Of a stretch of DNA of 64,000 bases, positions 42,313-56,667 are shown piece after piece. Under the pieces are notes generated by a model that was given only the letters and a program-made list of their open reading frames with translations, made no database searches and had not been told where the DNA came from. The position numbers and the translations under genes are program-made. Origin of the DNA: Methanolinea sp. (GTDB lineage: Archaea; Halobacteriota; Methanomicrobia; Methanomicrobiales; Methanospirillaceae). Each line of letters starts with the position of its first letter. The first letter of the stretch is position 1. The stretch is from assembly GCA_024518585.1 (NCBI GenBank), contig JANIHI010000001.1, positions 160,483-224,482 on the forward strand, in the 5' to 3' direction.

Positions 42313-42473
42313 GTGCCCCGCCGGGATGAGAAAAGACCCCCCCTTCCCGGCCAAAAACAGGATGGAAAAAATGCATTCACGCACGGGAAAATCCTCACCG
42401 GGATGCCTGCCGGGGGAACGGGAACAGTTTGATACCTTTATATGGCAACCCGGCACACATACTCCCTTATCCC

Positions 42474-43958
42474 ATGCCGTCCCGACGCTCCGATGAGGCC
42501 CTCTCCGAGGTCATCGGGTTCATCCTGATCCTTGCACTTATCGCAGCACTTGCGTCTCTCTACCTCACCTATGTCGTCCCTGCCCAAGGGAGGGAACTTG
42601 AAATAAAGCACATGGCACAGGTAAATGACCAGTTTCTCCAATACAAGACGTCAATTGATTCGCTCTGGATCAATGGCCAGGAGAATGTCCCGATTTCGAG
42701 CACGTTCACGCTCGGCACGGTGACAGGCCTTACGCAGGGGGCCTTCGTCATCCCCATCTTCCAGCCTTATCCCTCGAGCGGGATGATGGTGGTAAATGGG
42801 AGGGTAGAAAACATCACACTAAGTACCAATGTATTGACAATCGGGTTTCCTGGAGGATCGATCCCAAATTTGAATCCAGTCCAAGAGAATGCCGATCACC
42901 TCTATGTCCAGTTAATGACTTCAGACACCTCAAAAGGTGGGGGGCTCGTTTTAGTTCCCGATAAAGGTAACTGGACAATATGGCTGAATGTGACGAGAAC
43001 GGTAAATCCTGGCTCCAATTCTCAGGTGACTGTTCCACCATTCCCAACTCCCACTACCTCTCAAGCTTCCATAAGCTGGACCGAGTTGCAAACATGGATA
43101 AATAATAATCTCAATAATGCGGGAGGCTGGATATCTCAACTCCAGTCAGGTTTATCACAAACAACCGGTTTTTCTCCTTCTCTGACAATGACACTTTTTA
43201 AAAATAATAATACTGTTTTTTCAGGACTGCCACTTATATCGAACCTCCAGAATAATACATGGTATACTGTTGATATTCTGGATGATGCGTATGGGTTACG
43301 AGATCAACTTGAGTCCTCCTACACGGTAGTGATTCCCAAATCCACAAGCGATTGGATAAGCTCCAGATATCCTGCCGCTACAGGATACCAGGCTAAATCC
43401 CTCATTCTGAACCATTCTTTGGGCTCCCTCGAGTTCCGTTCCACGAATAACTACTGGATACAACAGAATTACTATTACCAGCAGGGCGGGGTTTTCCTCG
43501 AACAGCCGGATGGAAAGGTGGCAAAAGTCGTTCCTCTCATCAGTGTGACCAATAAAAGTGGTATTCCCACCATCAGATATGTCGATATTTTTATGGAGGG
43601 TTCGGGAAACATCGGTGGCACCTCACCGGTCCAGGTTATTTCGGTTCTCTCATCTGTAGAAAAAAACAGGATTAACGGCGAAAAACTTGCCCAGGGAATT
43701 CCCAATGCCATGAATGTGACAATAATCATTTCTGCGCAGGATGCCTCCACCGCATGGATGTGGAAACAGACCTTCTCCCGGATCAGGCAGGCAGCTTTAG
43801 ATGAAAATTTCCCTGCTGAGTGGATATCTGCACCATCCCAAACCGGAAACACAGTTCAATTCACCGTTCGTCACCCTGCTAATCAATATTCACTATTCCT
43901 TGACTATACCCGCGTCGACCTGGCAGTCGATCTCCAGTCGGTGGCCATTCCAGCATGA
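42474..43958 (+). CDS. Large pilin-like surface protein with type IV pilin N-terminus
   Basis: MPSRRSDEALSEVIGFILILALIAALASLYLTYV, then long extracytoplasmic region; TATA-like ctttatatgg upstream. Confidence 0.8.
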   Translation: MPSRRSDEALSEVIGFILILALIAALASLYLTYVVPAQGRELEIKHMAQVNDQFLQYKTSIDSLWINGQENVPISSTFTLGTVTGLTQGAFVIPIFQPYPSSGMMVVNGRVENITLSTNVLTIGFPGGSIPNLNPVQENADHLYVQLMTSDTSKGGGLVLVPDKGNWTIWLNVTRTVNPGSNSQVTVPPFPTPTTSQASISWTELQTWINNNLNNAGGWISQLQSGLSQTTGFSPSLTMTLFKNNNTVFSGLPLISNLQNNTWYTVDILDDAYGLRDQLESSYTVVIPKSTSDWISSRYPAATGYQAKSLILNHSLGSLEFRSTNNYWIQQNYYYQQGGVFLEQPDGKVAKVVPLISVTNKSGIPTIRYVDIFMEGSGNIGGTSPVQVISVLSSVEKNRINGEKLAQGIPNAMNVTIIISAQDASTAWMWKQTFSRIRQAALDENFPAEWISAPSQTGNTVQFTVRHPANQYSLFLDYTRVDLAVDLQSVAIPA

Positions 43959-44356
43959 ATACCAGGTTTGAGCATGAGAATGCTGTTTCTGAGATCCTCG
44001 GTGCACTTCTCCTCATTGCAGTCATCAGCCTTGCAGTCAGCATCATCGGGGTGTCAATCCTCTCCCATGTCAATACCTCTTCTGTCCCTGCCGTCTCTTT
44101 CGTGATCACGAATCAGAGTGCCACTATCACCGTTCTCCACGGGGGTGGAGACACACTCCCTGCCGGTTCCTACAGGATACTCATCGATGGTTCGGACCGG
44201 ACTGGAGAGTTCGAGCCGCTTCCTTCAGATACCCCTTTTATCCCGGGAACTGCCCTTACCTACCAGGGTCTTTCTTTTCCCCGCACTATTATGGTTCTGT
44301 ACCGTGGACCAGACGGGAGAGAGACTTTGCTCGTAGAGAAGATATTCTCCTGGTAA
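43955..44356 (+). CDS. Archaeal type IV pilin N-terminal domain protein
   Basis: ENAVSEILGALLLIAVISLAVSIIGVSIL followed by HGGGDTL module. Confidence 0.88.
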   Translation: MNTRFEHENAVSEILGALLLIAVISLAVSIIGVSILSHVNTSSVPAVSFVITNQSATITVLHGGGDTLPAGSYRILIDGSDRTGEFEPLPSDTPFIPGTALTYQGLSFPRTIMVLYRGPDGRETLLVEKIFSW

Positions 44357-44451
44357 CCTCTTCACGTCCCTCGTACCTCTGTCCCGGCTGGTGATACCCG
44401 TACCTATAAAAAGAACGCAGACAAGAGTATTTTCAAGACAGAATACGGGGG

Positions 44452-46194
44452 ATGGTGTCAGTCGTGAATGAAAATCCTACCCAGGCCGTCTCCGAGCTGA
44501 TCGGGGCAATCCTCCTCGTCGGTCTCGTCATAACCGCCATGGCAATCGTGGCCGTATTGGTATTATCCAATCCTCCTCCGGAAGAAGTACCCCACCTTTC
44601 TTCTCTTGCAAGCAATACGACCAATTCTATCCGGCTTTACCATACCGGGGGGGATGAGTTGAAAGAAGAGCTGACGACGATCACCCTCAATAATGGTCCT
44701 GAAGTTCCCCACTCAAAAATAAGACTGATTAAAGAGGATGGGACGACTGAAAGTGCACCATGGGATATCACGAAGACACCCTGGACAGTCGGGACAGTCC
44801 TGGTTCTCGATACTTCACCGGATGTACCTCAGAGCGTTACAGTCATGTATAGAGGACCTACGTCCCAGCACCTCATCCTGACGACTTCATTCATCGCCGG
44901 CACTGGTCTTGGCACACCGACACCGACTTCATCCCCAACACCGACAACAACTGCAACACCAACCCCTACTGCATCCCCGACGCCGACTCTATCCCCAACA
45001 CCGACAATAAATCAAACCACTACCCCTACTGCATCCCCAACGCCGACTCTATCCCCAACACCGACAACAACTGCAACACCGACTCCAACACCGACACCAT
45101 CCTGTGGCACAATATCTGGGATAAAATACAACGATATCAATGGAAATGGTAAGCGAGACCCGGGAGAGCCTGGATTGCCAGGGTGGACGATGCAATGCTT
45201 CAACAAACAGCAAGGAAATTGGGTTTTAATACAGGAAAAGACCACAAATTCAAGTGGTTTTTATATCTTTACAGGATTGCAGTATTTCCAATCTGCCGAA
45301 GATTACCAGATCAGGGAAATAATTCCTGCCGGTTGGATACCAATTGATCCACCTAATGGGATATCACGTTCTTACACACTCAACAACCCGCATTGCTACG
45401 AAACAGACGTAAATTTTGGCAACCAGCAGGTGTTACCGCCAACGGCAGATTTCACCGCCTCTCCAACCTCTGGTTACGCTCCCCTCTCCGTTCAGTTTAC
45501 AGACACATCCACAGGTAACCCGACTCAATGGCAATGGGATGTCAATAACGATGGAATTGTGGACTACACCGTTCAGAACCCGATGCACGTATACGCCATT
45601 CCTGGTACTTATTCGGTCAGGCTCACTGTATCAAACCCGGGAGGTTCGGACACTCGGATAAAAACAGGATATATTACAGTGAACGTACCCCAAACAACCA
45701 ACATTTATTTGGTTGCCAACAAACCCGGCAGTCTCCAAGAAGGAGGGTACATGCAGTTCCGTGTCACCGGTCCATACTCGTACATAAAGCATGGAAATAC
45801 ACGCTACAACCTCAATATTGGAGATGGTGTGAGACTCGAGATTACATCTGACGGAACAGGAAATATCTATGCAACATCATCGACGGTGAACGATTTCAGG
45901 TTCAATAATGTCAGATTAGTTCTCAATGGTGTCGACATGGGAACAAAGGATATCGGGGGAGGGGATATATGGGTCAGCGGGTACGATTCCTACCTGTCCA
46001 CACTGACACTGATCGTTCCGGCCAAGAATGAATGGACCCAGCTCACTGTCAATGGTGTCACGGTTATATTAGGATCTGATTCACGAGAGATACGCATATT
46101 CAACCTTTGTCCCGATACCTGGGGTGTCATGAACCTCAATACCCGGAATGATGTCTTTTACAGTGGCGGAGCAACGGGCTATCAGCTGACGTGA
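44452..46194 (+). CDS. Type IV pilin N-terminal protein with TP-rich linker, SdrD/Cna-B-like domain, PKD domain and new C-terminal domain
   Basis: [91 protein letters not shown]. Confidence 0.85.
44931..45083 (+). repeat. 60-bp in-frame tandem repeat encoding a [15 protein letters not shown] linker
   Basis: Aligned copies beginning at 44941, 45001 and (partial) 45061 differ at few positions. Confidence 0.9.
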
Positions 46195-46212
46195 ACCTCA
46201 ACCAATTCAGGC

Positions 46213-47466
46213 GTGATTATGGATCTCCTTCTTTTTCAAAAAAAAAGGACTTTTATCATTTTATTCGTGGTATCTGCCATCATCATCAGCATTCTTGGTG
46301 TTGTCATCCTCCATACCCACCCCAGAACCACCTCCACCAACCTCACCCTCACCATCTCGGGAAATACTGCCCTCCTGACCCACACCGGCGGAGATCCCCT
46401 CCCCTGTGACAGAGTGACTGTCCTCCTCGACGGGGAACCCCTCCCACTCGCCCTCGCGGGGACTGACTGTCCCTGGTCGATCGGCGAAACCCTCGCTGTC
46501 CCACTCGGCCCCGGTGACAGTCCCCACAGTATCAGCGTGGTTTATGCCAAAGGAGATACCCGGCAGGAGATCGTGCGTGCAGATATTCCCGGGCTGCCGG
46601 CCGGTGCACCGACCCCCGTCACTTTACCGGAGACCATTGCCACCACTGCTCTCCCAACGCCGTCCCTGACCCCGGCGTTGACCCTCCCCCCTACCCCTGC
46701 ATCTCCTCCCGGTCCCCCTGTCGCCTCCTTCAACGCCACCCCGAGATCCGGGCCGGTACCCCTCGCGGTCCAGTTCACTGACACATCAACCGGGGTCCCT
46801 TCCCGGTGGACATGGTCTTTTGGCGACGGAAAGACCTCTTCACTGCAGAACCCCCTGCACACGTATACCCGGGAAGGGACATATCCCGTCGGCCTGACCG
46901 TGGAGAACGAGTACGGCGGCCATACGAGGGTCAACCAGGGGTACATCACCGTTACTGCAGCGGGTTCAAGAGAGGTCTACCTCGAGGCGGGGAGGGATGC
47001 ACGCGTCTGTCCGGGAGGATTCCTTGAGTTCGGGGTGACAAGAGAACCGTCCCGCATCAGGGTCGGGGGAAAGATCATTGATATCCCGGCCGGTGCCCGG
47101 GTCCGCCTCGACCTCCCCCTCGGTGGCAAGGGCAAAGTGTCCATCCGCGACGACCAGGTAATTGATTTTTCCTTTGACAGTGTCACCCTCTCCCTCGATG
47201 GAGAACCGGTCGCCCAGGGGCTTGTCAGGGACGTCTCTATCCAGGGGTACGACTCTCTCATATCGAGCCTTTGCCTCTCGGTATCTGGAGGAGACGGAAA
47301 AGTCCGGATCCTGGAAGGGGGGGTTTTGGTCGGCATTCCGGACGAGAGATCTCCCGTGGTGCTCACTTCGCTCCGTCCCGGGAGTTCCGGTGCCATGACC
47401 CTGGACTGTTCCCGGGAGGGATTCGTATCTTTCGGGGGCAGAGTCACAGACTATTCCTTTTCGTGA
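46213..47466 (+). CDS. TM-anchored PKD surface protein with HTGGD module and shared C-terminal domain
   Basis: N-terminal [50 protein letters not shown]. Confidence 0.82.
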   Translation: MIMDLLLFQKKRTFIILFVVSAIIISILGVVILHTHPRTTSTNLTLTISGNTALLTHTGGDPLPCDRVTVLLDGEPLPLALAGTDCPWSIGETLAVPLGPGDSPHSISVVYAKGDTRQEIVRADIPGLPAGAPTPVTLPETIATTALPTPSLTPALTLPPTPASPPGPPVASFNATPRSGPVPLAVQFTDTSTGVPSRWTWSFGDGKTSSLQNPLHTYTREGTYPVGLTVENEYGGHTRVNQGYITVTAAGSREVYLEAGRDARVCPGGFLEFGVTREPSRIRVGGKIIDIPAGARVRLDLPLGGKGKVSIRDDQVIDFSFDSVTLSLDGEPVAQGLVRDVSIQGYDSLISSLCLSVSGGDGKVRILEGGVLVGIPDERSPVVLTSLRPGSSGAMTLDCSREGFVSFGGRVTDYSFS

Positions 47467-47630
47467 GGCAGGCTGGAAACCTACTCCTGGCCCGGGTGCA
47501 ATCCCCCCGGGGCTGTCCCCACTCTCCTCCCAGGCCTCCCTTTGCACGGAAAATCTTTGGAATTTTTAGGATACATTGATATAGGGACAGGAGAGAAGAC
47601 TTTTAAATACCGGATGAAAGGGCCGTTTTG

Positions 47631-49196
47631 ATGCGGCTAAGAGCCTCGGTATCCCACATAGTGACGCGGGTTGAGAAAATGGATCGGGAATCTGGAATTG
47701 CAAAAAATATCCTCCTGGCCCTGGTTGCTGCCATTGCAATCATCGTGGTGGTCATTGTCGCAGTCATGATTGTATTTCCACCACAGCCGGATGTTATACC
47801 GAAGTTTCAAGCCAATATCGAACGCTCTGGAAATACCGTTTACATCTACCATGACGGGGGCGATCCCCTCCAGAGCAGCAGGACCCTGGTCCGGGTAAAC
47901 GGTGTCACGGTCCCGCCCTCTTCCATCTCCTTCCTCCACGCCCAGGACTGGCCCTGGACTGTCGGAAAAACCCTGCGGATCCAGTACGAGGGGCCTGGCA
48001 GCCCGGACCTCGTCGAAATCGTCTATTCGGGGTCCAAGGGTGAAGTGATCCTCTTCTCATCGCAGGCGCCAACAGCTTCACAGACACTGATCCCCGTGAC
48101 AACAGTCCAAATGGTCACCCCCACGGTCACTGTGACCCCATCTGTCACCGGTCCTGCCGTTTCCGCAAGTCCAACACCTGCTCCGGTGCGTCCCTCCATT
48201 CCCCAACCGCCCCAGGCCGGGTTCACGGCCGACCCAAGGACCGGCCAGGCACCTCTCATTGTCCGGTTCACTGATACGAGCACAGGGGTCCCCACCTCCT
48301 GGTTGTGGAACTTTGGTGATGGAGAGACATCGACAGAGCAGAATCCGGTCCATACGTATAAAACTCCCGGGACATACTCGGTCGCACTCACCGTCAACAA
48401 CCAGTTCGGAAGCGGGCAGAAGGTTGAAAAGGACTATGTAGCCGTCGGGACGGTCCCTGTTGCACAATTTGCTGCAATCCCTTCCGAGGGGGAGTCCCCA
48501 CTTTCCGTCCAGTTCAATGACCTTTCAGGAGGAAATCCCTCGGCATTTTCCTGGGACTTTGGTGATGGGTCCTGGTCCACCGAGAGAAACCCCACCCATA
48601 CCTACACCAGGCCGGGGACATACACAGTCACCCTGGCGGTGAGCAACCCGTTTGGATCTGATACCCGCATCCAGAGCGGTGTCGTGAAGGTGAGCGCGCC
48701 GAAAGTCGTCGATGTATCCCTCACGGGAAGCCGTAACGGTCTCCTCTCCACCGGCTACCTCCAGTTCCTGGTCACGGGGGAGGGTGGCTGGGTCAAGATC
48801 GCTGGTTCCACGTATCCGTTCTCCCCAGACGACCAGGTCCAGGTCTTCATCGACAACGCCGGGAGTGGAATGGTTGACGTGAATGCAAATGGCATTTCAG
48901 GGCTGCGGTTCGATTCCGTCCGGATGTTCGTGAACGGGAAACATGTCCGGAGCGGTATCGTAACGGATATGAGAGTCCCCTCGTTTGCGGGACTCTCCTC
49001 GACCCTGACTATCACGATCCTGCCGGAAGACCAGACCATGGTCCTCTTCATCAATTCATCCAGGATTATTCCCGGTTCCGGCCAGAAAGTCGTCCTTGGA
49101 AACCTCTGCCAGAACTCCGGTGGACTGATGAACCTCCAGTTCAAGCCTGGTGGGCTCGAATACCGGGGTGGGGCACGGTCCTTTCGCCTCGAGTGA
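47631..49196 (+). CDS. TM-anchored surface protein with two PKD domains and shared C-terminal domain
   Basis: N-terminal TM, YHDGGDPL, two PKD units (WLWNFGDGETSTEQNPVHTY; FSWDFGDGSWSTERNPTHTY). Confidence 0.85.
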   Translation: MRLRASVSHIVTRVEKMDRESGIAKNILLALVAAIAIIVVVIVAVMIVFPPQPDVIPKFQANIERSGNTVYIYHDGGDPLQSSRTLVRVNGVTVPPSSISFLHAQDWPWTVGKTLRIQYEGPGSPDLVEIVYSGSKGEVILFSSQAPTASQTLIPVTTVQMVTPTVTVTPSVTGPAVSASPTPAPVRPSIPQPPQAGFTADPRTGQAPLIVRFTDTSTGVPTSWLWNFGDGETSTEQNPVHTYKTPGTYSVALTVNNQFGSGQKVEKDYVAVGTVPVAQFAAIPSEGESPLSVQFNDLSGGNPSAFSWDFGDGSWSTERNPTHTYTRPGTYTVTLAVSNPFGSDTRIQSGVVKVSAPKVVDVSLTGSRNGLLSTGYLQFLVTGEGGWVKIAGSTYPFSPDDQVQVFIDNAGSGMVDVNANGISGLRFDSVRMFVNGKHVRSGIVTDMRVPSFAGLSSTLTITILPEDQTMVLFINSSRIIPGSGQKVVLGNLCQNSGGLMNLQFKPGGLEYRGGARSFRLE

Positions 49197-49358: not shown

Positions 49359-52300
49359 TCAGAGCTGCTGGGTAAGATCTTTCAGCCTCTGGGAGACAAA
49401 ATCGACCAGTTCCTTTGACTCGTTTCTGGCATACTGAAGGAACCCCTCGTATGCATCAACAGCCTCCTTTGTCATTTCCAGCTTCTCGTACGCGAGTGCC
49501 TTGTTGAGGAATGCCCGGGCATACTGCGGGTTTGCGGAGAGTGCACGGTCAAACTCGTGGATTGCTTCCCTGCACATGTTCCGGTTGTAATAGATATTCC
49601 CCATGTTGTAGTAGGCTTCTGCCAGGTCGGGCCGGAGCGCCACCGCATGAGAGAAGTCTGAAATAGCCTCTTCGGTCAGGCCCTTCTTTCCATACTCGAT
49701 CCCCCGGTTATAGAAGGCTATGGCATTATGGGGGTTGATCTCGATAGCCCGCGAAAAGTCTGAAATGGCCTCGTTATACAGCCCAAGGGCTGCATGGGCA
49801 TTACCCCTGTTATTGTATGCCCTCTCGTTCCCTGGCGAAAGGTCGATGGCCCGGGTATAGTCGGCTATCGCGTCCTTGTACCTCTCGAGCTTCTGGAATG
49901 CGACTCCCCGGTTATAGTACGCCTCTGCGAGGTCAGGCTTAATTGCGATGGCATGCGAAAAGTCCTGCATCGCCTGGTCGATTTGTCCCTTCTTCCCGTA
50001 CTCGATCCCCCGGTTATAGTAGGCAGTCGGGTTATCGGGATTAATCTCGATTGCCCGGGAAAAATCTGCGATAGCCTCGTCATGCATCCCCCGTGCAGCA
50101 TACGCATTGCCCCGGTTATTGTATGCTTTCTCGTTCTGGGGGTTAAGCTCAAGTGCAACCGTGTAGTCCGCGATTGCCTGGTCGAGGCTCCCCTGCTTAT
50201 GGGAGGCCACTCCCCTGTTGTAATAGGCCTCTGCAAAATCAGGTCGGAGAGAGATTGCCTTCGTCAGGTCACCGATGGCCTCCGGAAGCATCCCCCTCTC
50301 CCCGTATTCTATTCCCCTGTTATAGTACGCTGTGGGATTTTCTGGGTTTATCTCGATTGCCCGGGAAAAATCTTTCATCGCCTCCTCTGAAAGTCCCATT
50401 CCTGCATAGACGTTCCCCCTGTTTATGAACGCCTTCTCGTTTGCCGGGTCAATCTCGATGACCCGTGAATAGTCCCTGAGAGCTTCCTCCATCATTCCCA
50501 GGCGCTCGTAGAGGAGTCCGCGGGCCAGGAGTATGCCTGTGTCTCCGGGTGAAATCTCGAGTGCCCGGGACAGATCCTGCACTGCCTCGTCGTATCTGGC
50601 CTCCCTGCTGAACTCCGTTGCCCTTGCCTTGTATACCTCAACCGCCTGGGAATTCAGCCGTATGGCATTGGAATAGTCCTCTATGGCCTTTCCGCTCTGC
50701 CCACAACGGCTCCTCTCATCGCCACGGCGAACATAGGCCGGAAAGAGCCGGGGATCGATCTCGAGAGCCCGGGAAAAATCAGCGATTGCCTCCTGGGGTT
50801 GCCCCAGCACCGAGTACTGGATACCCCTGCAAAGGTACGCCTGGGCATGTGCCGGCCGGAAAGTGATAACACGGGTCAGGTCATCGATGGCGTCTTGGGT
50901 GCGGCCCTGTTGAGCGTGCAGGACTGCCCGCCGGAAGAGGGCCTCTGCGTTCTCGGGATCAAGTTCTATTGCCCTTGAAAAATCTGAAATTGCATCCGGA
51001 ATCTTATGGAGACGGCTGTACTCGATTCCCCTCTGGAGGTATATGGCTGAATTGGATGGTTCAAGGGCAAGTGCCCTGCTGAGGTCTTCGATTGCCTTCT
51101 CGCTCTGGCCTTTTCGGGAATACTGCAATGCCCGGGAAAGCAGCGCCTCATGGTAATGGGGTCTCAATTCAAGGGCGCGTGACAGATCCCGGATTGCCAT
51201 CTCGGAGAGACCGATCCGGGAAAATTCGCATCCCCTGTGGTAGAGTGCCTCGGCAAAGCCCGGGCGGATTTCAAGTGCTTTCGTGAACTCCGAGATTGCC
51301 TGGTCAGAAAGGTTGGCCTTCTGGTAATCGAGTCCCCTCGCGAAGCATGCCTCGGCAAACCGGGGGTTGATCTTCATGGCCCTCGTGTAATCATTGATCG
51401 CGTCCTCCACCCTCCCGAGCCGGTCATACTCGTTCCCCCGGTTGTAATAGGCTTCGATGTAGCCGGGATCAATATCGATTGCGTGGGAAAAGTCCTCGAT
51501 TGCCTTCTCCGACAGCCCGAGGCGTGCGTATTCAAGTCCACGCCTGTTGTACAGCTCGGGGTCATCGGGAGACCGTTCGATTTCCTGCGTGATCTCACGG
51601 ATCTGGGGGTTTTCCCCCGGCTCTTCCTGCACGGGAAATGGACGCGCTTCTTCCGTTGCGGGTGCACTCTCTCCCTCTTCCAGGACTTCTTTTTCCCCTT
51701 CGACAACCGGCTCTTCCTCCCCGGCAGCTCTTCCCTGGTCACCGGGGAACCCACGTGAAAAGATCTCGAGTGCACGGGAAAACTCTGCAATGGCCTCGTC
51801 AAAGCGTCCGAGACGGTTGAAGAGGACTCCCCTGTTGTTATAGGCCTCAACGAAGCGCGGGTTTATCTCGACTGCCTTTGCGTAGTGTTCAAGAGCGGTT
51901 TCAACAAGGCCGAGGCGACTGTATTCGACTCCCAGGTTATTGTGAGCCTCTGCATACCGCGGATTTATCTCAAGGCAGTGGAGGTAGTCAGCAATCGCTG
52001 CCTCTGACTGCCCGAGCTTCCCATAGGCAAGACCCCGGTTGTAAAGGATATCGGGGTTTTTCGGGTTGAGCTCGAGTGCTTTCGTGTAATCGGCCAGGGC
52101 ATCCTCCAGGCGACCGACACGGGTGAATTCGATGGCCCTGTTAAAGAGGGCCTCGGTGAAATGGGGATCACGTGCAAAAGCCCTGGTGTAATCCTCGATG
52201 GCTCTCTCATGGTCACCCCGGCGGGCAAAGATAACCCCCCTGTTATTGTAGGCCGGCGCATACGCGGGGTCGATACTGATTGCCTGCGAAAAGTCCTCGA

Positions 52301-52673
52301 TGGCACGGTCGTCCTCCCCGATGCGGGAATACTCGATGCCCCTGTTATAGTACGCTTCAATAAAGTCCGTGTCGGATTCAATTGCCTTGGAAAAATCCTC
52401 TATTGCTTTTTCTGGCTGGTTGAGGAGGGAGTACGCGATACCCCGGTTAAAGAATGCCTCGGAAAAGTGGGGATTGATGCGGAGTGCCGTGGTATAATCA
52501 TCAATCGCTCCCTTGTAGTCATGCTTTCCTGCCTTCGCAACACCCCTGTTGTGGTATGCCTCTGCATCCTGGGGGTTTATCTCGATGGCATGGGTATAAT
52601 CAGCAATTGCCTCGTCGAAAAGGCCCTTTTTGTGGTAGGCAATCCCGCGGTTATAATAAATCTCACCATCCAT
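49359..52673 (-). CDS. Very long TPR-repeat protein (~30 TPR units)
   Basis: Near-continuous 34-aa AIxDFSxAIEIxPxxxEAYYNRGxxY units over 1104 aa. Confidence 0.95.
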   Translation of the reverse strand: MDGEIYYNRGIAYHKKGLFDEAIADYTHAIEINPQDAEAYHNRGVAKAGKHDYKGAIDDYTTALRINPHFSEAFFNRGIAYSLLNQPEKAIEDFSKAIESDTDFIEAYYNRGIEYSRIGEDDRAIEDFSQAISIDPAYAPAYNNRGVIFARRGDHERAIEDYTRAFARDPHFTEALFNRAIEFTRVGRLEDALADYTKALELNPKNPDILYNRGLAYGKLGQSEAAIADYLHCLEINPRYAEAHNNLGVEYSRLGLVETALEHYAKAVEINPRFVEAYNNRGVLFNRLGRFDEAIAEFSRALEIFSRGFPGDQGRAAGEEEPVVEGEKEVLEEGESAPATEEARPFPVQEEPGENPQIREITQEIERSPDDPELYNRRGLEYARLGLSEKAIEDFSHAIDIDPGYIEAYYNRGNEYDRLGRVEDAINDYTRAMKINPRFAEACFARGLDYQKANLSDQAISEFTKALEIRPGFAEALYHRGCEFSRIGLSEMAIRDLSRALELRPHYHEALLSRALQYSRKGQSEKAIEDLSRALALEPSNSAIYLQRGIEYSRLHKIPDAISDFSRAIELDPENAEALFRRAVLHAQQGRTQDAIDDLTRVITFRPAHAQAYLCRGIQYSVLGQPQEAIADFSRALEIDPRLFPAYVRRGDERSRCGQSGKAIEDYSNAIRLNSQAVEVYKARATEFSREARYDEAVQDLSRALEISPGDTGILLARGLLYERLGMMEEALRDYSRVIEIDPANEKAFINRGNVYAGMGLSEEAMKDFSRAIEINPENPTAYYNRGIEYGERGMLPEAIGDLTKAISLRPDFAEAYYNRGVASHKQGSLDQAIADYTVALELNPQNEKAYNNRGNAYAARGMHDEAIADFSRAIEINPDNPTAYYNRGIEYGKKGQIDQAMQDFSHAIAIKPDLAEAYYNRGVAFQKLERYKDAIADYTRAIDLSPGNERAYNNRGNAHAALGLYNEAISDFSRAIEINPHNAIAFYNRGIEYGKKGLTEEAISDFSHAVALRPDLAEAYYNMGNIYYNRNMCREAIHEFDRALSANPQYARAFLNKALAYEKLEMTKEAVDAYEGFLQYARNESKELVDFVSQRLKDLTQQL

Positions 52674-54945: not shown

Positions 54946-56667
54946 CCGACATTCCGCAGGTCGTAAATCAAAAATAATATTTTTCATACGGCGGCCCCAG
55001 CAGAGCGAGTATTTTCCGCAAATCGTCGTTTAAATTTGCAATTTTCAGAACTCTCTTCCCATCCGCAATGACCGCAAATTCCCTCACCCTCCTGAACAGG
55101 AAGAAGACCCATTTCAACGTTGGCCGTTGGGTCTGTTTCTTTGTCTGGCTGATGACAGTCTTACCCGTCCGGACCAGTGCCTGTCTCAACTGGTATTCCA
55201 CCATGGAATAGATGAACAGACAGATGACCATGATCATTGCCAGGGCCTGGATCCGGGATGGTTTCTTGAGGTAGATTTCAGCCACGCGGAATGACTTGTC
55301 CTTGAGGAACCGGAACCCCCGTTCAACAGCACCCTGGCCCTTGTAATAGTCAAGAAGCAGATCCGGGGAAAGGTCAAGGTCATTGGTGGCAAGGACAAAC
55401 CGCCCCAGTCTCTGTCGTTCCTGCTGAATGAAATCAGGGTCCTGTTCAATCTCAGCTACGATGACATAGACAACAGAGAGAGTTTCGCCGGATTTTGGCC
55501 TTCCCCGGCTTTTCTTTTCCTTATGATGAACTGGAACAATCGCGAGGTGAATGAACCGGTACCGGGGATGATTTTTTATCCATTTATTGGCTGCCGCACG
55601 TGCATCCGGTTCACACTTGAATTCATGGCCCATTAATTTCTTCAGGGATTTCCTGGCCTTGACAATGTCCTTTTCCAACTGAGAAAGAAATGTCTTCTCC
55701 TGGTGCTGGTGCATCGGCTCGGAATGGAAGACGACCCATTTCTGCTCGATGCCTGCATAGGTCATGCGAACCTCGTGGTATGAATACCGTGAATCCTGGC
55801 AGGGAGAAAAGGAAAGGTCCGCTTCCTGGAGGTCTTTGACCCGGGCGATTGTTGCCGGTACCCGCGTGATCCAGAACGTGTGCCTGCCGAGTCCATGGAG
55901 CGTTTCGGGTGTGTAGAATTCTGAATCGGCGATGTGGTAGACTTTATCGTGGGATTTCAGGTTGTTCACCAGGTTACGGATGATTTTCCTGATGGACTCC
56001 TTGTCTGACTCGTTTCCTCTAGAATGTCTGGAGAAAGAGGGGTACACCATGTTGGTTCGCCGCGATACCCAGCACAAATCGCTTGAGGTCCCACCGCCCG
56101 TCCTTGGGATAGCCGTAGGTGATTTGGATCTCTTCTGTCCCGAAATCAGGTTCATAGTTTCCTGTGACGCTGAAGTTCGTTGTGTCAATGTGGACGCAGT
56201 GTGTTCCAAAATCGCTGTGGAGAAGACATTCTCCAACGATTTCGTTAAAAAGTTCAGTCGGACCATATTCGGCGATTGCGTCCAGCGTCCGCCCAAAGAC
56301 ATCGTCGTTGAGGTTATCCCGTGTGATTCCTGGACCGATGAGCCGGTTTAATGCAATGTCATCAAAGAAGTCGGGGAAGAGGTAGAGTCGCCGTTCGACA
56401 AATCCCAGTCCGTTCAGCACCATGAGCTTGACGACATCTGAATGCGTCAGATGGTGATGTTGCGTCTTGGGTATCGCCCGGTCAATAACTTTTCCGATTC
56501 CAAGTGAGTCATAGGCTCCGGCAACAATCCCAAGGTGGCCGATTGTCTGGATGGATTCATCGTCAAATCCATCGATTATGGGCATATTTTGGGTTTTAGA
56601 CTCATAGTACAAAGATCTTTCGGTCCGGATAATTTAATTTCGAGATCTTTTTACTGCGAATTGTCGG
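54946..56667 (-). mobile_element. IS1634-family-like insertion sequence with TIRs and 6-bp target duplication
   Basis: Ends CCGACATTCCGCAG (left) and CCGACAATTCGCAG (right, revcomp), 12/14 identical; flanked by GTGGAT at 54940-54945 and 56668-56673; encloses transposase ORFs. Confidence 0.85.
54968..56612 (-). pseudogene. IS1634-type transposase split by a frameshift near 56019-56030
   Basis: N-terminal frame (56019..56612) ends GVPLFLQTF*; second frame resumes GNESDKESIRKIIRNLV and continues through the DDE region to 54968. Confidence 0.75.

Follow-up and report, generated by a model that had tools for sequence, protein, structure and literature searches.

A cluster of five codirectional genes in a Methanolinea genome is best read as encoding the minor or tip pilins of an archaeal type IV pilus that takes its motor from genes in trans, an interpretation drawn from comparative sequence analysis to which we assign a probability of roughly 0.7. 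The window, meaning the whole 64,000-nucleotide stretch of DNA that was analysed, forms part of contig C14 of genome G000 (1.78 Mb). As the original prediction held, all five open reading frames lie on one strand, between 42474 and 49196:

42474-43958, + strand: gene 1, a 494-aa pilin-like protein with the N-terminus DEALSEVIGFILIL and a large ectodomain
43955-44356, + strand: gene 2, a 133-aa archaeal type IV pilin with the N-terminus HENAVSEILGALLLI
44452-46194, + strand: gene 3, 580 aa, with a pilin N-terminus, head, Thr/Pro linker, SdrD_B-like domain, PKD domain and C-terminal domain
46219-47466, + strand: gene 4, 415 aa, with a plain TM anchor without pilin site, head, PKD domain and C-terminal domain
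47679-49196, + strand: gene 5, 505 aa, with a degenerate pilin N-terminus, head, two PKD domains and C-terminal domain

The start of gene 2 overlaps the stop of gene 1 (ATGA), an overlap retained in 9 of 11 loci. Defence-system models gave no matches to the sequence. Beyond the cluster, the minus strand of the window encodes a 1104-aa protein in convergent orientation to gene 5 (49359-52673), which consists almost entirely of TPR repeats (26 TPR_1 stretches). The same strand carries a DDE_Tnp_1 transposase (54971-56302), a mobile element lying 5.8 kb past the downstream end of the cluster.

The N-termini of genes 1-3 had been described as pilin-type, and they are indeed present as quoted and kept in all relatives, in each of which they carry a class III signal (Gly or Ala at -1 and a hydrophobic helix following S-E). 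A charged residue at -2, which archaeal prepilin peptidases favour (PMC4371748), is missing from most gene 2 and gene 3 sequences, a point that counts against the pilus reading. Genes 4 and 5 were said to retain only a plain TM anchor; this is correct for gene 4, in which alignment with relatives reveals no pilin site, but not for gene 5, whose N-terminus is degenerate yet recognisably that of a pilin. It reads ESGIAKN in the window and ESAIS[KR]N in relatives, where pilins read xxAVSE. Across the gene 5 family the pilin site is present, but at +3 Lys or Arg replaces the conserved Glu in 13 of the 16 sequences; a relative in G048 has an intact site (GLSDALGA). We likewise entertained a plain anchor for gene 5 at an early stage and abandoned it once the relatives had been aligned. 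Judged by that alignment, the N-terminus of gene 5 is a charge-inverted pilin remnant, a new observation that had escaped the original prediction.

Four of the five proteins share a motif of the form H-x-G-G-D next to their membrane segment:

44138..44158, + strand: H-G-G-G-D-T-L of gene 2, within the pilin head domain
44641..44661, + strand: H-T-G-G-D-E-L of gene 3
46381..46401, + strand: H-T-G-G-D-P-L of gene 4
47850..47870, + strand: H-D-G-G-D-P-L of gene 5

When genes 2-5 are aligned with relatives, the His, both Gly, the Asp and the Leu are invariant, and across 10-15 relatives per gene an occasional Glu or Asn takes the place of the Asp; because these residues are conserved, we attribute the similarity among the four heads to homology and not to chance. 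Against the Pilin_N profile (PF07790; cut-off 25.2 bits), genes 2, 3 and 5 score above the threshold (49, 49.6 and 26.7 bits, respectively), gene 4 is borderline (22.5 bits as a protein, 25.7 bits in a genome scan) and gene 1 falls below it (16.4 bits). Residues 9-81 of gene 2 cover positions 1-77 of the 78 in the profile, with the motif, at residues 62-68, inside it. Residues 2-122 of gene 2 also align with a subunit of a solved pilus, PDB 8fj5, itself annotated as a "Pilin_N domain-containing protein" (phmmer, E 1.5e-6); gene 3 matches the same subunit weakly (E 0.078), and the search of gene 5 against it gave no match. Five of the eight Pilin_N matches in the entire genome fall in the cluster. 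The common module once proposed for these genes is thus real, being present in genes 2-5 and lacking in gene 1, but it is nothing special: by profile and alignment it is the globular head that archaeal type IV pilins ordinarily possess, already known. That genes 4 and 5 have it accordingly marks both as pilin-derived, and no new motif need be invoked.

Outside the heads, genes 3-5 carry a series of ectodomains:

45124-45339, + strand: SdrD_B-like domain of gene 3 (SdrD_B, 34.1 bits)
45439-45681, + strand: PKD domain of gene 3 (PKD_4, 48.7 bits)
46744-46953, + strand: PKD domain of gene 4
48219-48446 and 48471-48668, + strand: two PKD domains of gene 5 (PKD_4, 132.7 bits)
45679..46191, + strand: C-terminal domain copy of gene 3, placed by alignment of the copies
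46948..47463, + strand: C-terminal domain copy of gene 4, placed by alignment of the copies
48693..49193, + strand: C-terminal domain copy of gene 5, all-beta in an AF2 model (block pLDDT 78-94)

The C-terminal domain, of approximately 165 residues, is common to genes 3, 4 and 5 and was overlooked in the original prediction. No Pfam family was found for it, and a profile search returned no convincing relative in the PDB. Among 232 genomes of the class its profile matches 85, all within one order, and among 295 genomes of the phylum the matches outside that order come from nine genomes of another family. The AF2 model of gene 5 (mean pLDDT 79.4) predicts a beta head at residues 43-129, a disordered linker, the two PKD domains and finally the all-beta C-terminal domain. 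We assign this last domain no fold relative, since a Foldseek search with the gene 5 model retrieved only generic Ig/PKD chains at low TM-score. As far as these searches reach, the shared C-terminal domain is new and unnamed. In G004 (locus L094, 3772-5793), one open frame adjoining gene 1 joins a head like that of gene 2 to a C-terminal domain like that of gene 3. The linker of gene 3 (window 44900-45105) consists of Thr/Pro-rich repeats, and this region appears to be exchanged between relatives, because that of G037 has a PKD-like segment at the same place.

The broad family of which gene 1 is a member has the consensus signature NNYWIQQ.YYYQ.GGVFL.Q and was linked by sequence profiles to DUF7289 (PF23960), a connection missed earlier: 16 of 28 homologues match that profile (best 7.2e-12), with bit scores reaching 40.7 and 27.2 against a cut-off of 27, whereas the window's own gene 1 (P0001) is longer and, at 13 bits, lies below the cut-off. 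An AF2 model of gene 1 built from four sequences had a pLDDT of 35 and was discarded. In G210 (locus L144, 5483-8341), a homologue of gene 1 and two copies of the C-terminal domain of genes 3-5 are fused within a single open frame of 953 aa.

The original prediction named a lack of this gene order in every relative, together with independent expression of the five genes, as grounds for rejection. The order 1-2-3-4-5 is in fact kept in every one of the nine genomes of the same genus whose locus is unbroken (G066, G074, G029, G061, G037, G021, G056, G070 and G050) and in G013, which belongs to another genus. In farther relatives across the order, between one and four head-domain proteins come after gene 1, their ectodomains varying greatly, and many of these other loci lack gene 2 or have large multi-domain pilins in its place. 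With the C-terminal domain as the sole criterion for picking loci, 16 of 20 had a full homologue of gene 1 alongside, and in other families the C-terminal domain is found on true pilins adjoining gene 1. Genes 4 and 5 are more loosely attached. They lie away from genes 1-3 in G007, G067 and G009, and orthologues of gene 5 stand alone in G033 (L031), G025 (L039) and G040 (L041), genomes from which gene 1 and the C16-type motor described below are both absent. It follows that genes 4 and 5 are not obligatory components of the pilus proposed here, and the occurrence of gene 5 in genomes without that motor argues for a wider role of its product. We consequently regard the pair as a separable module whose role is less certain than that of genes 1-3.

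No secretion ATPase had been seen in the window, and the motor genes do indeed sit on other contigs. The genome contains three ATPase-TadC sets, on C4, C16 and C27; the C4 set, accompanied by archaellins and Arl genes, is the archaellum, and those on C16 and C27 are two pilus motors besides. With the single prepilin peptidase of the genome (C27:44224), the machinery of a type IV pilus (secretion ATPase, TadC and prepilin peptidase) is present, its ATPase-TadC part in two sets in addition to the archaellum. A PilA-type pilin is located alone on contig C26. Such dispersal is familiar from euryarchaeal pili, whose pilins are often encoded apart from the motor and whose motors work with pilins in trans (PMC4858521).

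Co-occurrence points to one of the two pilus motors. From a base of 232 genomes of the class, with one divergent genus left out, we scored gene 1 as present at E<1e-25 and tested it against the presence of the C16-type ATPase in the 123 genomes that were at least 90% complete, the presence labels being transcribed by hand. Both genes were found in 88 genomes and neither in 28, with the ATPase alone in 5 and gene 1 alone in 2, so that 116 of 123 genomes were concordant and 7 discordant (Fisher p = 2.4e-20; p = 4.5e-16 when weak gene 1 matches were counted as present). When the gene 1 labels were permuted inside genera 20,000 times, concordance averaged 97.5 genomes and peaked at 110, so that the observed 116 was not attained once. 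In genus g6, where the sole pilus motor is of the C16 type, gene 1 is present except in G043, a genome that is 80% complete, and genomes with only a C27-type motor (four of genus g15, as well as G060) are without gene 1. In G083, moreover, the C16-type ATPase and its TadC are followed on one strand by gene 1, directly downstream of this motor, and then by a small pilin, and in G034 the C16-type motor and the gene 1 group lie on the same strand inside 16 kb. A PilA-like gene is found 3 kb from the gene 1 copies of G077. The co-occurrence and the joined loci of G083 and G034 lead us to tie the cluster to the C16-type motor, a new assignment under which the putative pilin set would belong with that motor.

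Upstream sequences indicate how the five genes might be expressed. The TATA-like boxes predicted before genes 1, 3 and 5 are present, and all are conserved to some degree:

42428..42445, + strand: gene 1 promoter (TTTGATAcCTTTATATGG), with a TATA-like box at 42436-42445, about 30 nt before the ATG
44403..44413, + strand: TATA-like box upstream of gene 3; most relatives have an AT-rich box here
47600..47610, + strand: TATA-like box of gene 5 (CTTTTAAATAC), with a conserved TTGATATAGGG ahead of it at 47576

The gene 1 promoter is kept in the loci of ten relatives as TTTGATAtctTTTATATAAT followed by ACACATAC, and the block upstream of gene 5 is conserved in about nine. Conservation of these two boxes is strong (about ten relatives), whereas that of the gene 3 box is only moderate. 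Together with the retained overlap of genes 1 and 2, the strongly conserved promoters of genes 1 and 5 suggest that genes 1-2, genes 3-4 and gene 5 form the putative expression units. With three conserved promoters, the five genes may not necessarily be expressed as a single unit, and separate expression is allowed. We weighed the hexamer TTGATA, found upstream of both gene 1 and gene 5, as a common regulator site and dropped it, the motif being short and too frequent in the window.

We propose the following mechanism, building on features read directly from the genomes: the pilin N-termini of genes 1-3, the heads of genes 2-5, the gene order, the co-inheritance with the C16 ATPase-TadC and the adjacency to it in a relative. 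The preproteins of genes 1-3 would be cleaved by the prepilin peptidase at C27:44224, and the C16 ATPase and TadC would then pull the processed pilins out of the membrane into a filament that probably consists mostly of the PilA-type pilin on contig C26. The core minor pilin, which is constant, would come from gene 1; gene 2 would contribute a pilin with a bare head, and gene 3 a pilin exposing its SdrD_B, PKD and C-terminal domains, presumably as adhesive parts. The products of genes 4 and 5, having lost the pilin N-terminus or inverted its charge, respectively, probably remain in the membrane and do not polymerise; they could flank the pilus as anchor or docking partner, or else could cap it. 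A tentative extension, which we consider possible but by no means probable, is that both are retired pilins, the replacement of Glu by Lys or Arg, kept among gene 5 orthologues, making a fixed membrane partner that docks with the pilus or some other surface structure, or caps it; docking would run through the head and C-terminal domains common to the true pilins.

Other readings of the cluster deserve consideration. The separate conserved promoters, and the fact that the modules come apart in several genera, could mean that unrelated adhesins happen to lie side by side, the pilin-anchored genes 1-3 next to an independent pair of PKD adhesins with no joint assembly. We think this unlikely, given that both modules have the same head and the same C-terminal domain, that the order is invariant within the genus, and that the C-terminal domain occurs on true pilins beside gene 1 in other families.

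The original prediction favoured a dedicated pseudopilus or surface complex. Its broader element, a pilin-type assembly, agrees with the conserved order, the common head and the succession of gene 1 and head-domain pilins, but the pseudopilus itself is without support, inasmuch as a type IV pilus motor with a matching distribution exists in trans and adjoins gene 1 in a relative; the graded tip subunits envisaged there are conjectural. A pseudopilus or non-filament complex would consist of five membrane-anchored proteins in a short bundle, joined through their shared heads, with the C-terminal domains of genes 3-5 pointing outward; it would accommodate the missing intact pilin signal in two of the five proteins, the predominance by mass of PKD and unnamed C-terminal domains, and the occurrence of the 4-5 module apart from the motor. 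The intact pilin N-termini of genes 1-3 in all relatives, the tracking of the pilus motor by gene 1 and its position beside that motor in G083, and the similarity between gene 2 and a filament subunit of solved structure make such a complex improbable in our view. It is harder still to credit that genes 1-3 are themselves the filament of an independent pilus, with gene 2 as major pilin and no part for the C26 PilA-type pilin. Gene 2 is compact, head-only and major-pilin-like, and the cluster does hold most of the genome's Pilin_N matches; unlike a major pilin, however, gene 2 is absent or replaced at many loci, and a canonical PilA-type pilin exists in the genome. We thus retain the minor or tip pilin set with a motor in trans as the preferred reading.

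Which pilins are served by which motor is usually unknown in archaea, because pilin genes often lie far from motor genes. Here, comparative data pair one pilin set with one of two pilus motors across a whole methanogen order, and the pairing is open to direct genetic test. Within the set, moreover, true pilins grade into fixed surface proteins derived from pilins, and an unnamed domain recurs along this series. Bacterial minor pilin and adhesin operons, like the minor pseudopilins of T2SS, combine a constant minor pilin with larger tip subunits whose genes lie apart from the motor, one tip subunit being without the pilin Glu. The five-gene set would work alike, although this is an analogy for which no sequence relationship is claimed. 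The window shows no sign of a secretin or of other T2SS-specific parts, and archaea of the host's group are not known to have an outer membrane. With the PF07790 Pilin_N pilins, including PDB 8fj5, the cluster shares an N-terminal pilin helix and a small beta head with an H-x-G-G-D loop, and it differs from them in the linkers, PKD, SdrD_B and unnamed C-terminal domains added in genes 3-5 and in the N-terminus lost in gene 4 and charge-inverted in gene 5. Compared by description only, gene 1 fits the size range, duplication and beta-rich character of the arCOG02911 minor pilin (Makarova 2016, PMC4858521). In the literature that we found on euryarchaeal pili, there is no description of the five-gene composition. 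The euryarchaeal ATPase/TadC pili of the H. volcanii PilB3/PilB4 type (Makarova 2016, PMC4858521) resemble the present case in having a motor locus without pilins, a pilin set elsewhere and a large beta-rich minor pilin that goes along; the difference is that here one motor has been assigned by co-occurrence and a rare joined locus. The arrangement is therefore most likely a new layout of a known type of machine, the type IV pilus.
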